The position numbers and the translations under genes were made by a program. From a virus: a stretch of 41,151 bases of DNA. Positions 4,837 through 32,647 of the stretch are shown here, one piece after another (the first letter of the stretch is position 1; each line of letters opens with the position of its first letter). The stretch lies in IMG/VR virus record IMGVR_UViG_3300037264_001081, positions 1 to 41,151 of that record. One strand, written 5' to 3'. A model generated the notes under the pieces. The model made no database searches, was not told the DNA's origin, and saw nothing but the letters and a program-made list of their open reading frames with translations.

Positions 4837-5124
4837 ATGGCAAAACAAGAATTTCCAATTGAGATTGGTAAGGCCGATAAAAACAAAACAGAAGTAATTG
4901 TAGTCAATGTTTCTCAATATAAGGGAAAAAAGTTTATTGACGCGCGAGTGAATTTCAGAGACAGAGAAGACCCCGACAAATTGATTCCAACGAAGAAGGG
5001 TCTAACGTTGTCCATGAAAACGTTTGAACCTGTTATGAAATTGCTTTTGGTCGCATACAAACAACTCCAAGAATTGGATGAAAAAACGGCTACAGAAGAT
5101 GATTCAGAAGTTTCTGAACCATAA
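4837..5124 (+). CDS. PC4/p15-like ssDNA-binding protein
   Basis: The 95-aa product matches the PC4 (transcriptional coactivator p15) fold. A strand region EVIVVNVSQYKGKKFIDARV is followed by RDREDPDKLIPTKKGLTLS and the C-terminal helix FEPVMKLLLVAYKQL. The PTKKGLTLS segment is the family signature. PC4-like proteins bind ssDNA as dimers and act in transcription or recombination. The C-terminus is acidic (ATEDDSEVSEP), like phage ssDNA-binding proteins that contact partners through an acidic tail. AAGGA precedes the ATG. It ends the operon begun at 3413. Confidence 0.7.
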   Translation: MAKQEFPIEIGKADKNKTEVIVVNVSQYKGKKFIDARVNFRDREDPDKLIPTKKGLTLSMKTFEPVMKLLLVAYKQLQELDEKTATEDDSEVSEP

Positions 5125-5251: not shown

Positions 5252-5295
5252 GGGGGCACTCAAGTGGCTACTAGTAATAAATGTGCCCCCCTTTT
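5252..5295 (+). terminator. Terminator-like hairpin before tmRNA
   Basis: GGGGGCAC (5252-5259) pairs with GTGCCCCC (5283-5290) around a 23-nt loop and is followed by CTTTT. It lies 8 nt before the tmRNA 5' end, so it may instead or also be a processing signal for tmRNA 5' maturation. Confidence 0.6.
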
Positions 5296-5302
5296 AAAAT
5301 TT

Positions 5303-5803
5303 GGGGTAGAATTGATTCGACAGGTTACCAGATATTTGAAATGCATGTCAAGTTGCTCAGACTTGTAAAACGGGGCAAAACAATAAATGCAGAGACAATC
5401 TCTGACTTCACTTTCGAAGACGCACTTGCTTTTGTAGGTGCATCCAAATCCGCAATGGAAGTTGCGAGCGAAAGTGAGCTCGTTTACGCTTAATAGTGTG
5501 AACTTGAGCCTAAGGTTCTGATACAACACCTTTCATTTACGAGGTCTGACCCCGAGCGAGACTCGGCAGTAGGTCTTCTGGGAGTTGCCTTAGGATTACA
5601 AAAATCAGATGGTCAGCGCAGTTGGTAGATTGACCCAGCGCGGATTTCACGTTCCGTGTGTTTTTTTAAAAACAACGTGATATGTTTTGCTGAATGTCGT
5701 TTGCAATCATTCTTCAAAAATGAAATGTGAAAAATGCAAACTACACATGTAGCATTTCTTATTGATGGTAGTTTGGACTCGGACTCGTTATCCGACTACT
5801 CCA
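5303..5803 (+). ncRNA. ssrA: tmRNA (one-piece, about 500 nt)
   Basis: The 5' end GGGGTAG...TTGATTCGACAGG matches the tmRNA 5' consensus (GGGG..GATTCGACGGG). The 3' end forms the tRNA-like acceptor: CTACTCC (5796-5802) pairs with GGGGTAG (5303-5309), one G-U pair. The T arm TCGGA/TCCGA has loop CTCGTTA. ACATGTAGCA upstream matches the conserved GCATGTAG stretch near tmRNA 3' ends. A first pseudoknot is clear: CAAGT/ACTTG (5349-5365) and GCTC with GGGC (5373-5376). A GCA resume codon follows 12 nt later, at 5389. The tag frame ends in tandem stops TAATAG. Downstream helices include CCTAAGG/CCTTAGG (5509/5588) and CCGAG/CTCGG. With SmpB, tmRNA rescues stalled ribosomes. CCA is not encoded. It is longer than usual, mainly in the tag and the 3' pseudoknot region. 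Confidence 0.9.
5389..5496 (+). other. tmRNA tag reading frame, predicted 34 residues
   Basis: From the GCA resume codon at 5389 the frame runs 34 codons to TAA-TAG. The tag begins AETISDFTFEDALAF and ends ESELVYA. Most bacterial tags are about 8-20 residues and end in hydrophobic residues such as LAA. This one has a moderately hydrophobic LVYA end and is acidic in the middle. The exact resume site is inferred from spacing to the first pseudoknot. Confidence 0.6.
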
Positions 5804-5825
5804 CAAAATATAATAAAGGATTATA

Positions 5826-6335: not shown

Positions 6336-6767
6336 ATGTACAATTTGGATTTAATTAAACGTGGTGTGTTTGACAATACGTTGTTTGGGTCAGATTTGTT
6401 TTGGTCATGGGGGGACTCCGATAGATTTTTTGGGCAATCGTCTAATATACGTGTTCCAAAAAAATACAGCCAACACGTTACATTTGATAAAGAGAATGCG
6501 TATGTGACAATCCCATTAGTTGGGTTTGAGAAAGACGAAATTAAGATTTCCGTTGTCAAAAACATTCTCAAAATTTATGCAAAGAGAAAGAGTGACGCCA
6601 AACAAATGTTTTTGGAGAACGAAGTTTCAGTATCATATAGGTTATCAGATGTACATGTTTCCGAAAAAATTTCTTCTGTGTTAAAGAACGGTGTACTTAC
6701 GGTTACAGTCCCGTATAAAAATGTAACACGTGCGGAAGAAACAGAACGCACCATCAAAATCGAGTAA
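6336..6767 (+). CDS. hsp20: Small heat-shock protein Hsp20
   Basis: The 143-aa product has the alpha-crystallin domain from about residue 45: HVTFDKENAYVTIPLVGFEKDEIKISVVKN in pieces, then ILKIYAKR, YRLSDVHVSEKISSVLKNGVLTVTVP, and the C-terminal I-x-I motif (TIKIE). The KNGVLTVTVP stretch is the family hallmark. These ATP-independent holdases bind unfolding proteins. Hsp20 genes are common in T4-like phages of aquatic bacteria, where they may help virion protein folding. AAGGAG precedes the ATG. A terminator follows directly. Confidence 0.92.
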   Translation: MYNLDLIKRGVFDNTLFGSDLFWSWGDSDRFFGQSSNIRVPKKYSQHVTFDKENAYVTIPLVGFEKDEIKISVVKNILKIYAKRKSDAKQMFLENEVSVSYRLSDVHVSEKISSVLKNGVLTVTVPYKNVTRAEETERTIKIE

Positions 6768-8532: not shown

Positions 8533-9639
8533 ATGCTACAAACGCCAGATAAAATTTATTTGACTTACGATGATGTTAACATAGTCCCAGCGTATAGTGA
8601 AGTTCAACACAGAACAGATGCACACATTTCACCAAAAACCCAATTTACAAAAAATAGAGAAATACTATCACCGATAATATCAGCACCGATGGATACCGTA
8701 ACAGAATATGAAATGGCATACGCGTTATGGACACATGGTGGAGTTGGTATTATACACAGATTCAATAATATAGAAGAACAGTGTAATCAAGTCATTCAAC
8801 TTAAACAAAAACTGGGTAGATATGAAAATTATGATGAATCTTTGTCAGATGCAGATTGGTTTAGAAATCCACCAATCGCATGTGCTATTGGGGTATCTAA
8901 TGATTATCTGAATCGAGCAAAAAAATTGGTTGGTGTTGGTGCAAACGTATTATTGATAGATGTTGCACATGGACATCATAAATATGTCAAAGTAGCACTG
9001 AGAGATTTAAAATCGGAGTTCGGAAACACGGTAGATATAATTGCAGGAAATGTTGCAACGGCTAATGGTGCTGTAGATTTACAAGATTGGGGCGCAGATG
9101 CGATTCGTGTCGGAATTGGAAATGGTTCGTTGTGTGAAACACGAATTAGGACTGGTGTTGGAGTACCACAAGTATCCGCATTATTAGAAATATCACCGGT
9201 AGTTTCCATTCCAATTATTGCAGATGGTGGTGTTCGATATATCGGAGATATTTGTAAAGCCCTTGCGGCAGGCGCGGATTCTGTTATGTTGGGTTCACTG
9301 CTTGCCGGAACTAGAGAAACACCAGGCCCAATAGACCGAATTGGAATGTGGCCGAATGAAGTATTGTACAAACGATATCAGGGGTCAGCATCTGCGTCTT
9401 CAAAACGACAACGTGGTGAGAACGAAAAAAACGTAGAAGGTAATAGTAAATTGATTCCATATAAAGGGAAAATCAAACGATTGATATTGGATATAAACGA
9501 AGGTATTTATTCTTCATTTGGATATGTTGGTGCAACAAATATTGACGAATTTCATCACTATGCAAATTTAATTCGAGTTACATCTGCATCTCATATAGAA
9601 GGATTACCACACTTAATGTATAGTGGAGACATGCCATGA
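8533..9639 (+). CDS. guaB-like: IMP dehydrogenase/GMP reductase family enzyme
   Basis: The 368-aa TIM-barrel protein starts with LTYDDVNIVPAYSEV, followed by SPIISAPMDTVTEYEMA and HGGVGIIHRF, as in IMPDH. The catalytic loop GIGNGSLCETRIRTGVGVPQ places the active cysteine at residue 201. IPIIADGGVRYIGDICKALAAGADSVMLG is the phosphate-binding part. The flap region is shortened (YQGSASASSKRQ), then IPYKGKIKRLILDINEGI. There are no CBS domains, explaining the short length compared with typical bacterial IMPDH. IMPDH makes XMP from IMP for guanine nucleotides; GMP reductase runs GMP back to IMP. The C-terminal pattern slightly favours IMPDH. It fits with the phage's other nucleotide enzymes. Confidence 0.88.
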   Translation: MLQTPDKIYLTYDDVNIVPAYSEVQHRTDAHISPKTQFTKNREILSPIISAPMDTVTEYEMAYALWTHGGVGIIHRFNNIEEQCNQVIQLKQKLGRYENYDESLSDADWFRNPPIACAIGVSNDYLNRAKKLVGVGANVLLIDVAHGHHKYVKVALRDLKSEFGNTVDIIAGNVATANGAVDLQDWGADAIRVGIGNGSLCETRIRTGVGVPQVSALLEISPVVSIPIIADGGVRYIGDICKALAAGADSVMLGSLLAGTRETPGPIDRIGMWPNEVLYKRYQGSASASSKRQRGENEKNVEGNSKLIPYKGKIKRLILDINEGIYSSFGYVGATNIDEFHHYANLIRVTSASHIEGLPHLMYSGDMP

Positions 9640-10674: not shown

Positions 10675-11274
10675 ATGAACAGAAAACCCGCCGGAAAAAG
10701 GTTTCGAAAGAAGGATAGAGGGATTGATATAAACACAATCAATTTATTGTTTCGAGAACTAGAGTTTGGATTGGACATAGCAACAAACACATTGTATTTA
10801 AATTCAGAAATTTCTATTGATTCATTATATGAAACAATGGGCAGGTTGAATTTGTTGTTGAAATTCAACAATAAAAATTCAATAACACTAAATGTATCGT
10901 CATTTGGTGGTGATGTATATAGTATGTTTGGAATACATGATTTTATTAGAACGTTACCGGTCAAAGTAAACACAACGTGTATAGGGCCTGCAATGTCAGC
11001 TGCGGCGTTTTTGTTGGTATCAGGAACCGGCGTTCGTCAAATGACGAAAAATTCTACCGTAATGTTTCATCAATTTAGTTCTTCGGTAGAAGGTAAAACA
11101 CAATCAATAATGTTGAATGCGACACATATTAAAAAATTACAAGACCGAGCAAATGAACTTCTTGGTATTTATACAAAAAAACCAAAATCCTTTTGGCAAA
11201 GAGTTACAAATGAAGATACATTTTTAACAGCAGAAGATTGTTTGAATTATGGTGTTGTGGATAAAATCATATAG
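10675..11274 (+). CDS. clpP-like: ClpP-like serine protease
   Basis: The 199-aa product has the ClpP fold. ITLNVSSFGGDVYSMFGIHD is the oxyanion/handle region. The catalytic triad can be placed: Ser108 in GPAMSAAAFLL, His132 in VMFHQFSS and Asp181 in TNEDTFLTAED, with spacings like those of E. coli ClpP. About 30 basic residues precede the domain (NRKPAGKRFRKKDRG). ClpP-type proteases are found in T4-like phages and can serve as head maturation proteases or in host takeover; no scaffold or capsid gene is nearby, so the role is open. GGAG precedes the ATG. Confidence 0.88.
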   Translation: MNRKPAGKRFRKKDRGIDINTINLLFRELEFGLDIATNTLYLNSEISIDSLYETMGRLNLLLKFNNKNSITLNVSSFGGDVYSMFGIHDFIRTLPVKVNTTCIGPAMSAAAFLLVSGTGVRQMTKNSTVMFHQFSSSVEGKTQSIMLNATHIKKLQDRANELLGIYTKKPKSFWQRVTNEDTFLTAEDCLNYGVVDKII

Positions 11275-18148: not shown

Positions 18149-18607
18149 ATGGCCGCACCATTGACAAACGTTCCATTTAAAAATAGAAACTTTCCTACAA
18201 GTGCATCCATTAAGTCGAGTGCAATTGGATTGACATTACCAATTTCCAACGATGTTATGGGAACGTATTTTGGACAAACATACACAACGATAGACCAAGC
18301 AAAGTCCAATTTGAAAAATTTATTACTCACCGTACCAGGCGAAAGAATAATGCACCCAACGCTTGGTACAGATTTATACAAAATATTATTCGACCCGGTT
18401 TCGGATGAAGATGTGTTAAAAGAAACAGTTAGTAATCTCATTGAAGATGCTGTTCAATTGTGGTTATCGTACATAGCAATAAACGAGTTAAATGTATCGT
18501 TTGATAGGAACGAATCTATAGTAAATATTGACATAACCTTTTCATTGAAAAACGACCCAACGATTCAAGACATTTTGTACATCAGTGTTAGCACTGGAGA
18601 TTTATAA
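18149..18607 (+). CDS. gp25-like: Baseplate wedge protein gp25-like
   Basis: The 152-aa product has the gp25/gpW signature: IDQAKSNLKNLLLTVPGERI, then MHPTLGTDLYKILFDP, an acidic helix, and beta strands INELNVSFDRNESIVNIDI. gp25 joins gp6 and gp53 in the baseplate wedge core and starts sheath polymerisation. Slightly longer than T4 gp25 because of an N-terminal extension. AGAGGG precedes the ATG. The stop overlaps the ATG of the homing endonuclease by 1 nt. Confidence 0.88.
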   Translation: MAAPLTNVPFKNRNFPTSASIKSSAIGLTLPISNDVMGTYFGQTYTTIDQAKSNLKNLLLTVPGERIMHPTLGTDLYKILFDPVSDEDVLKETVSNLIEDAVQLWLSYIAINELNVSFDRNESIVNIDITFSLKNDPTIQDILYISVSTGDL

Positions 18608-19425
18608 TGCCTAGTGGTGTGTATGAAAGAACAGACGAACATAAAAGAAAAATTGGAATTTCTGTAAAACAAAGACTTAAAAATAAAGAAAACCACCCAA
18701 TGTATGGTAAACAGCATTCTCTTGAGGCTAAGAAAAAAATGTCAGACCATAGTTTGGTTAAAGGAAATCATCTATCAGTTAAACATAAAGTTGCGATTAG
18801 TAATGCAAGAAAGGGATATATTGTACCAAATTCTGTTAAGTTAAAAATATCTAGAACATTATGTACAAAGTATAAAACTGGAGAAATTGTTCCAGCCCGG
18901 CCAATGTTAGGGAAACATCATTCAGACGAAACAAAACAAGAAATTTCAAAACGATGCTCTGTTTCTATCAAAAATCAATATGATAATGGCAGGGTGGGTT
19001 CTATGGTAGGAAAACACCATTCAGAGGAAACAAAAAGAAAACTTAGAGCATCAAACATAGGTCAAAAAAGAAATTTTCAAGCCAAACAAAAAATGAGAAT
19101 TTCCGCTATACAGCGAATAGAAAGATGCCGATTCGATGGAAATCAATTAATTCCAGCATATAATTCAAACGCATGTAAAATCATAGATGAATATGGAAAG
19201 AAACACGGATACAATTTCCAACATGCAGAAAATGGTGGTGAGTTTCACATTAAAGACTTAGGATATTTTGTTGATGGTTATGACAAAGAAAAAAACACAG
19301 TCATTGAGATAGATGAAAAACGCCATTTCAATGAGAATGGTTTACTCAAACAAAAGGATGTGGAAAGGCAAATTGAGATAGAAAATTTTCTTGGTTGTGA
19401 TTTTATTAGATTGAAATCGGAGTAA
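18607..19425 (+). CDS. Free-standing homing endonuclease (NUMOD3 repeats plus PD-(D/E)XK-like)
   Basis: The N-terminal 160 residues hold NUMOD3-like repeats, such as MYGKQHSLEAKKKMS, LGKHHSDETKQEIS and VGKHHSEETKRKLR, which bind DNA in homing enzymes. The C-terminal 80 residues read YFVDGYDKEKNTVIEIDEKRHF then FLGCDFIRLKSE. The D...E-x-D-x-K spacing is that of Vsr/PD-(D/E)XK nucleases. It sits between the gp25-like and gp6-like genes, overlapping the first by 1 nt. Such genes usually cut allelic phages lacking them. Related to the gene at 31823. Confidence 0.8.
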   Translation: MPSGVYERTDEHKRKIGISVKQRLKNKENHPMYGKQHSLEAKKKMSDHSLVKGNHLSVKHKVAISNARKGYIVPNSVKLKISRTLCTKYKTGEIVPARPMLGKHHSDETKQEISKRCSVSIKNQYDNGRVGSMVGKHHSEETKRKLRASNIGQKRNFQAKQKMRISAIQRIERCRFDGNQLIPAYNSNACKIIDEYGKKHGYNFQHAENGGEFHIKDLGYFVDGYDKEKNTVIEIDEKRHFNENGLLKQKDVERQIEIENFLGCDFIRLKSE

Positions 19426-31393: not shown

Positions 31394-31842
31394 TGCTAAC
31401 AAGTTCAAGAAAATCGAAAGGTAGACTGTTACAAAATTTGGTTGTTTTGAAATTTCGAGAATTGTTTGAAGGTATTTTAGAAAAAGACGATATCAAGCCT
31501 GCAATCATGGGAACATCGGGAGTTGATACTGTATTAAGTCCGTCTGCAAAAAATCTTATCGTATTTGATATAGAATGTAAAAATGTTGAGAAGTTGATTG
31601 GTGCGACATTACAAAATGCGATTGACCAAGCGGAATCAAATTCGAGTGATGAACGAATACCATTATTGATTTTTAAGAAAAATAATAGTGAAGAATATGT
31701 ATTGTTAAAATTCCATGATTTTTTAGGATTAATTTATCCAAATAACAATGTTACTTTTGGAATGGATGATGCTCAAAAAATAGTCGTGGAATTGGAAAAA
31801 ATAAAACAACTAGTGATTAATAATGCCAAGCGGACACTATAA
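31393..31842 (+). CDS. PD-(D/E)XK-like nuclease, possible resolvase
   Basis: The ATG at 31393 follows GGAGAGG. The 149-aa product has IMGTSGVDTVLSPSAKNLIV then FDIECKNVEKL, that is D...E-x-K in the spacing of PD-(D/E)XK nucleases, followed by a Gln-bearing helix (LQNAIDQAESNS) and PLLIFKKNNSEEYVLL. This resembles small archaeal-type Holliday junction resolvases and related phage enzymes. It leads the recombination block, which supports a role in DNA branch or end processing. Its last 20 nt overlap the homing endonuclease. Confidence 0.6.
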   Translation: MLTSSRKSKGRLLQNLVVLKFRELFEGILEKDDIKPAIMGTSGVDTVLSPSAKNLIVFDIECKNVEKLIGATLQNAIDQAESNSSDERIPLLIFKKNNSEEYVLLKFHDFLGLIYPNNNVTFGMDDAQKIVVELEKIKQLVINNAKRTL

Positions 31843-32647
31843 AAGAACCAAATTACATGGTAATCGGATATCAAATGCACTACAAGGTCGAATTGGATTT
31901 TGGGAAGGTAAATCATTGTCCGAATCTCATAAAAAAAATATATCGAAATCTTTGATTGGAAGGAAATTGTCCAAATCTCATAAGAAAAAATTATCAAATG
32001 CTAAAATGGGTAAAAATCACCCACTATGGGGGAAACATCTGTCTGATGATGTAAAGGAAAAAATTCGGAAATCGTTGTGTGGTAAGAATCATTATTTATA
32101 TGGAAAACACCCATCAATTGAAAGTAAAAATAAAATGTCATTGTCCCAACACGAAAGATTTAAGAAACCTGGTGAACGGGAAAAACTGAAATTGGCCGCA
32201 CAATTGAGATGGAAAAGTGAGGACGAAAGAGTTCGAGCGAAAGTTAGAACTTTAAAAAACATGACATTGGGGATTGGATTCAAACCATCAAAATCAGCAA
32301 CGCTATTTCTTAATGAATTAGAAAAGTTGTGGAATTGTAATATTCATCGTGAGTGTGAAGTTGGGGGTCGCTTATTTGATGGAAAAACTGATGATATATT
32401 AATTGAAGTAGATGGGAAATATTGGCACACATTTCCAAAACAAGTTGAAATAGACAAAGAAAAAGAATTGATTGCTAAGTTAAATGGATATAGATTGGTT
32501 CGATTTGAAGTAAATAATACGAGAGATATATTAACAGTAATAAATTCTATAAAAGATGGTGAACAGAAAGGTGGGTTATATGAGTGCAATAGACAAGTTG
32601 ATTTTTTTAGATGTAGAAATGACAGGAATAAATGTTGCAACCGATGA
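31823..32647 (+). CDS. Second homing endonuclease (NUMOD3 repeats plus PD-(D/E)XK-like)
   Basis: It begins MPSGHYKRTK, like the MPSGVYERTD start of the gene at 18607. NUMOD3-like repeats follow (SLSESHKKNISKSLIGRKLS, HLSDDVKEKIRKSLCGKNHY, HPSIESKNKMS). The nuclease part has RLFDGKTDDILIEVDGKYWH and then LIAKLNGYRLVRFEV, matching D...E-x-D-x-K Vsr-like sites. The last 68 nt overlap the exonuclease gene in another frame, and the final residues (VDFFRCRNDRNKCCNR) are just out-of-frame translation of that gene. The insertion seems to have lost its own stop codon. Confidence 0.8.
   Translation: MPSGHYKRTKLHGNRISNALQGRIGFWEGKSLSESHKKNISKSLIGRKLSKSHKKKLSNAKMGKNHPLWGKHLSDDVKEKIRKSLCGKNHYLYGKHPSIESKNKMSLSQHERFKKPGEREKLKLAAQLRWKSEDERVRAKVRTLKNMTLGIGFKPSKSATLFLNELEKLWNCNIHRECEVGGRLFDGKTDDILIEVDGKYWHTFPKQVEIDKEKELIAKLNGYRLVRFEVNNTRDILTVINSIKDGEQKGGLYECNRQVDFFRCRNDRNKCCNR

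Follow-up and report, generated by a model that had tools for sequence, protein, structure and literature searches.

A phage tmRNA with a 34-residue tag whose conserved core may be an inserted docking module

The window analysed here, a viral fragment of 41 kb (41,151 nucleotides in full) with T4-like baseplate genes, encodes a tmRNA with an unusually long tag, the core of which is conserved as a peptide in dozens of uncultured phages. The explanation that we favour, with modest confidence and on the analysis as a whole, is that this phage tmRNA would add a composite tag containing an inserted docking module for an adaptor or a protease. These phages appear to have added a specific recognition signal to the bacterial quality-control tag.

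The tmRNA gene

The cmscan search aligned the region with the complete RF00023 model (positions 1-374, 92.9 bits, E 4e-35; cut-off 47 bits), and an RF00023 search of the window's own record agreed on a tmRNA at 5303-5806. The gene and its ends comprise the following features:

5303-5806, + strand: tmRNA gene (ssrA) of the standard one-piece form (RF00023, 92.9 bits, full model)
5303-5309, + strand: 5' strand of the acceptor stem, GGGGTAG, pairing with CTACTCC at 5796-5802 and including a G3-U70 wobble (sequence, cmscan alignment)
5779-5795, + strand: T arm, TCGGA-CTCGTTA-TCCGA, with an unusual T loop (sequence; the same loop is found in contig L103)

A tmRNA had been proposed at this place in an earlier sequence-only reading, and the match over the whole model bears this out; the acceptor, T arm, resume codon and tandem stops that it described can all be read off the sequence. 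The expected agreement between the covariance model and ARAGORN was obtained only in part: the RF00023 match exceeds the cut-off, whereas ARAGORN, run on the window, reported no tmRNA; the unusual T loop CTCGTTA at 5784-5790 is the probable reason.

The 7-bp acceptor stem with its G3-U70 pair and the T arm together make up the tRNA-like domain of a tmRNA, and a G3-U70 wobble is typical of alanine identity. The discriminator is the A at 5803, and no CCA is encoded (ACAA instead). In the cmscan alignment the PK1 region has a high posterior, the PK2-PK4 region is poorly aligned, and an insertion of 70 nt relative to the model falls in the tag region. Non-canonical T loops of the form (C/A)TCGTTA, in which the usual T54 or A58 is missing, were seen in three phage tmRNAs, those of the window (5784-5790), L103 and L293.

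The tag reading frame

The tag message consists of a long open frame followed directly by its stops:

5389-5490, + strand: tag reading frame, 34 codons from the resume codon GCA, AETISDFTFEDALAFVGASKSAMEVASESELVYA (sequence; peptide-level conservation)
5491-5496, + strand: tandem stop codons TAA TAG, the TAA lying in the loop of a 9-bp stem, 5482-5490/5495-5503 (sequence, fold)

The arrangement is that of a tmRNA, with a resume codon and an upstream A, an open frame, here long (34 codons), and a stop placed in a stem-loop. The A stands at -4 from the GCA at 5389, CAATAAAT directly preceding that codon, and almost every relative with a frame that was read also has it at -4; the exception, L211, has an A three or four bases upstream, depending on how it is aligned. 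The frame is the one that had been proposed from the letters, starting with GCA at 5389 and running for 34 residues to ESELVYA before TAA TAG. Its description as unusually long and acidic also holds: the tag is acidic, it is the longest of the family that shares its FTFEDA core, and its 34 residues compare with the usual 10, the commonest tag length in a database of 97,179 sequences (PMC11915505).

Two other readings of this region were considered and rejected. A resume codon elsewhere, giving a short tag, is refuted by the conservation of codon positions in the tag frame, which rules out a short tag in either of the other frames; read by eye, these two frames meet a stop after 15 and 4 codons, respectively, and lack comparable conservation. 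An ordinary small gene is ruled out by the lack of an in-frame start codon in most relatives. In 21 of the 30 distinct members of the first family (defined below), the stretch from the upstream stop to the core contains no in-frame ATG, GTG or TTG, so that ordinary initiation cannot account for the conservation; the window does have an upstream ATG, at 5281, but its relatives do not share it. Comparison of the sequences indicates that the core frame is one of trans-translation and not an ordinary gene.

A peptide core conserved in long phage tags

The part of the frame that recurs in other phages is short:

5398-5436, + strand: conserved tag core ISDFTFEDALAFV, the proposed docking module (33 distinct phage tags with the core; codon-position entropy)

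The tag of L095, GNEISDFTYEDAMAFVSGEYALAA, is also long and has its core in common with the window, and a first coding pattern for this shared core located L104, L107 and L112. When the coding pattern for FTFEDAMAF was relaxed and scanned over 2.9 million viral contigs, it matched 39 stretches, all of them in tmRNA-like tag frames. In this first family the core, which can be written [IVL]S.FT[FY][ED]DA[ML]A[FL]VG, lies after the resume codon and ahead of the C-terminal end, and most tags have 23-25 residues, the commonest form being AEELSSFTFEDAMAFVGADYAVAA (24 residues).

For a 10-codon core in 22 distinct sequences, the entropies summed by codon position are 1.28 bits (first), 0.44 bits (second) and 9.97 bits (third). 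All ten third positions vary, and pairwise codon differences are 831 synonymous versus 215 non-synonymous; these counts tally sequences rather than events, but the pattern is nonetheless one-sided. With third positions nearly free and first and second positions nearly fixed, the data show that the core peptide is under selection and does not recur by chance.

RF00023 was above the cut-off in 42 of the 43 contigs chosen by tag pattern alone, and in the forty-third the tag is at the contig end. Long tags are not a sampling quirk either, as contigs gathered through gp6 and an HD-domain protein, both unrelated to tmRNA, contained 15 tmRNAs above the cut-off, ten with tags of 24-39 residues and five with tags of 9-14. 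AlphaFold, given six aligned tags, predicted a helix beginning at residue 9; confidence was modest, with a pLDDT of about 78 for the first 20 residues. A search of the PDB with the tag gave no match.

Two relatives have tmRNA loci of an unusual kind. On the minus strand of L107, at about 4126-3494, a tmRNA with the same core carries a group I intron in its T loop (GTCGGTT, intron, CGACTCCGAC), and Rfam misses this tmRNA because the intron interrupts that loop. The insertion site resembles loop position 2, which to date has been reported almost exclusively from Anaerolineae (PMC11915505). In L096 (IMGVR_UViG_3300032291_002550) the phage tmRNA, whose own tag of 34 residues is unrelated (ANKNIISQDSRNFANQVEAKIISLVRNEYVAIAA), is followed about 0.7 kb downstream by a GOLLD RNA (256 bits).

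A second family of long tags

Related phages (L275-L309) carry a second family of long tags, G[DE].SL.GLDIDWHLA...QP[TS]YAYAA, of 34-40 residues and with the canonical end YAYAA throughout. Its coding pattern matched 36 stretches, every one a short tag-type frame. By codon position the entropy is 1.98 bits (first), 0.35 bits (second) and 6.01 bits (third), with 254 synonymous versus 74 non-synonymous differences. To judge from their sequences, the two families represent two independent or very divergent inventions of long phage tags.

C-terminal ends of the tags

Most tags of the first family end in a canonical degron (YAVAA or YALAA; AVAA or ALAA). The window's ELVYA differs both from the LAA-type C-terminus of the canonical ClpX degron, which most relatives fit, and from the AFA end of the Mycoplasma type (NYAFA). 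E-L-V-type ends are found in the window, L104, L107, L112, L244, L250, L252 and L273, the ends in the window's branch being ELVYA, EELV, LVLA and LVEA. These comparisons indicate that the module is an insertion before the degron and that the degron has drifted in one part of the first family. A changed destination for tagged proteins, suggested in the sequence-only reading, is plausible and gains ground because the core is conserved as a peptide and ELVYA departs from the LAA type; the link that was drawn to the phage ClpP found no support.

About eight members with the FTFEDA core have an E-L-V-type end instead of the canonical AA, and these could mean that the tag is a functional label or effector, acting through stability, sequestration or inhibition of a host protein, with degradation avoided at least in this branch. 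Tight conservation of the module is also what a binding peptide would show. However, the canonical degron ends of most members and of the whole second family point to proteolysis, and we consider such a role distinctly unlikely.

RNA structure of the tag message

Two structural elements were identified in the window's tag message:

5390-5404, + strand: hairpin overlapping the resume codon, CAGAGA-CAA-TCTCTG (fold; similar hairpin in relatives)
5407-5478, + strand: extension arm inside the tag frame, a 10-bp stem (5407-5416/5469-5478) around two hairpins (predicted fold)

The predicted fold of this message is much more stable than those of control sequences, with a z score of -5.7 against dinucleotide shuffles and of -4.3 against synonymous recoding. 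Structure beyond the synonymous expectation was found in the window, L107, L209 and L085. The second-family message is strongly structured (z -3.0 to -5.5), beyond this expectation in all six members tested, and at least one two-sided change was seen at 6 of 40 consensus pairs among six close sequences. A hairpin starting at most 4 nt from the resume codon is present in 27 of 33 distinct first-family tmRNAs and in 28 of 28 of the second family, where the sequences are closely related and the counts consequently not independent. Of six short-tag tmRNAs, only those of L213 (4 bp) and L097 (3 bp) form a hairpin at this position.

The extra structure in these messages and the resume-codon hairpin present in nearly all long-tag tmRNAs would be expected if the extension served the RNA, as an added stem-loop arm that stabilises it or helps to load it on the ribosome, with the peptide as a mere by-product. 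Nearly free third positions next to nearly fixed first and second ones in the core speak against this, as does the behaviour of several 24-residue members, whose messages have no extra stability over synonymous recodings; the RNA arm is therefore not general to the first family. We regard a purely RNA-level function as very improbable.

Distribution and hosts

The nearest named relatives of the window by gp6 are Microcystis phage Mel-JY01, the 484-kb phage LR756508 and Flavobacterium phage immuto. With tblastn, whose sensitivity is limited for so short a query, the window's tag had no match in 50,697 phage records or 72,556 plasmids, and the second-family tag had one chance-level match only in the phage records. 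No conserved long phage tag is described in the published work searched; the accessible part of PMC11915505 does not mention long phage tags, and its viral set consists of RefSeq viruses, without these contigs. Within these limited searches, cultured phages had neither of the two cores, and the FTFEDA core was absent from the bacterial tmRNAs.

Lipoprotein signals of the Bacteroidota type were noticed by eye in neighbouring phage genes. The Gly resume codons and YALAA ends of these tags resemble those of Bacteroidota tags, and the three features together suggest Bacteroidota hosts.

The same Bacteroidota-like signals and tag features would suit a module that is the host group's own tag, acquired with its tmRNA and read by an ordinary host adaptor. 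Phage tmRNAs can indeed be host-derived (PMC9004378). However, a scan of the genomes of 85,000 species for the D-F-T form of the core alone, which is less common than the S/T-F-T forms, gave eight matches, none of them in a tmRNA, and the broad form, scanned for in cyanobacteria only, matched none of 386 genomes. Mimicry of a host tag seems unlikely.

ClpP, SmpB and other possible partners

A protease gene lies 5 kb downstream of the tmRNA:

10675-11274, + strand: ClpP-like serine protease, membership in the tag system not supported (PF00574, 113.9 bits; best PHROG phrog_94)

In the sequence-only reading the long tag was imagined to send tagged proteins to this ClpP, which matches bacterial ClpP structures (80 bits) and keeps the catalytic Ser, His and Asp by alignment. 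Its best PHROG match, however, is the head maturation protease phrog_94 (103.7 bits, versus 49.7 for the ATP-dependent protease PHROG), and its co-occurrence with long tags is patchy in both directions. ClpP was found in the long-tag contigs L095, L096, L242, L244, L262, L273, L285 and LR756508 besides the window, and was not found in eight others of 80-210 kb (L093, L107, L112, L209, L251, L254, L264 and L288), of which L107, L112, L209, L251 and L264 measure 95-210 kb; such absence is weak evidence because the contigs are incomplete. Conversely, some phages, Mel-JY01 among them, carry ClpP but no tmRNA that scores above the cut-off. Clp unfoldases were sought in these phages and found only in the 484-kb LR756508, with none in the window fragment. 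The patchy co-occurrence and the head protease match leave the ClpP route unsupported; we rejected the phage ClpP as a partner of the tag and consider degradation by this route scarcely credible.

No SmpB was found in 16 records (the window and 15 related ones). None of the neighbouring genes checked goes with the FTFEDA module, and no partner protein was found.

A possible mechanism and its relation to known systems

Alanylation, SmpB-dependent ribosome entry and tag addition are established steps of tmRNA function. By family resemblance, the phage tmRNA would be charged with alanine, aided by an assumed host SmpB, would enter ribosomes that have stalled on broken mRNA during infection, and would add Ala and the 34-residue tag. 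According to the docking explanation that we favour, the FTFEDA module would be a linear motif, probably helical, for an adaptor or for the N-domain of an unfoldase or protease, and its docking would deliver phage-tagged chains preferentially, much as SspB does when it binds the E. coli tag in its N-terminal half. Since most members have kept canonical ClpX-type ends, host ClpXP would be the likeliest destroyer, with the module as a delivery tether; in the window's branch, where the canonical end has been lost, delivery would be expected to rely on the module or a different protease. The extra RNA stems, including the resume-codon hairpin, may keep the longer tag message compact.

A wider reading is that a widespread uncultured phage lineage, with its two families of long tags, places a phage-specific module before the degron and that a dedicated receptor decides the fate of every stalled chain. 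We put this forward tentatively, at slightly under an even chance.

The window's tmRNA shares with the standard one-piece bacterial form (RF00023) the architecture of its ends, the A at -4, the stops in a stem-loop and, in many members, the C-terminal degron. It differs in the tag, the phage tags having 23-40 residues with a conserved inserted module, against a commonest length of 10 in the database of PMC11915505. The extended tag of Mycoplasma and Mesoplasma, a substrate of Lon, is likewise long, has more than one contact region and ends in an altered C-terminus (NYAFA), but it is cellular and of another sequence, whereas the phage tags have the module FT[FY]EDA[ML]A[FL]VG and mostly canonical ends. 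The SspB site of the E. coli ssrA tag is similarly a docking segment upstream of a C-terminal degron; SspB, however, binds within an 11-residue tag, the sequences differ, and no SspB-like partner was found for the phage tags.

Other phages with ssrA, mostly without SmpB, include Streptomyces phages, Methylophilales phage Melnitz and huge phages. Annotated Streptomyces phage tags, for example ANSKNASAYALAA, have 11-13 residues and are shorter than the window's. The Melnitz tmRNA is two-piece and the window's one-piece; in Melnitz a gene for a PC4-type coactivator adjoins ssrA, and a PC4-like gene (4837-5124) likewise lies just upstream of the window's tmRNA.

Why phages carry a tmRNA is unsettled, and a nearly invariant module with drifting codons shows that the tag matters to these phages, not only ribosome release. 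FTFEDAMAFVG offers a concrete bait for a receptor search, and long phage tags could provide new degron parts for synthetic biology. Surveys based on ARAGORN can miss such long tags.

Other genes in the window

Among the eight tRNAs at the left end of the window, the one at 1437-1510 has the anticodon CUA (Pyl by ARAGORN) and is a possible amber suppressor. Genes for an Hsp20 small heat-shock protein and an IMP dehydrogenase/GMP reductase are located at 6336-6767 and 8533-9639, respectively. Two genes, at 18607-19425 and 31823-32647, resemble homing endonucleases by eye, with repeated NUMOD-type motifs (MPSG.Y.R...H...I), and one of the two adjoins the baseplate genes.
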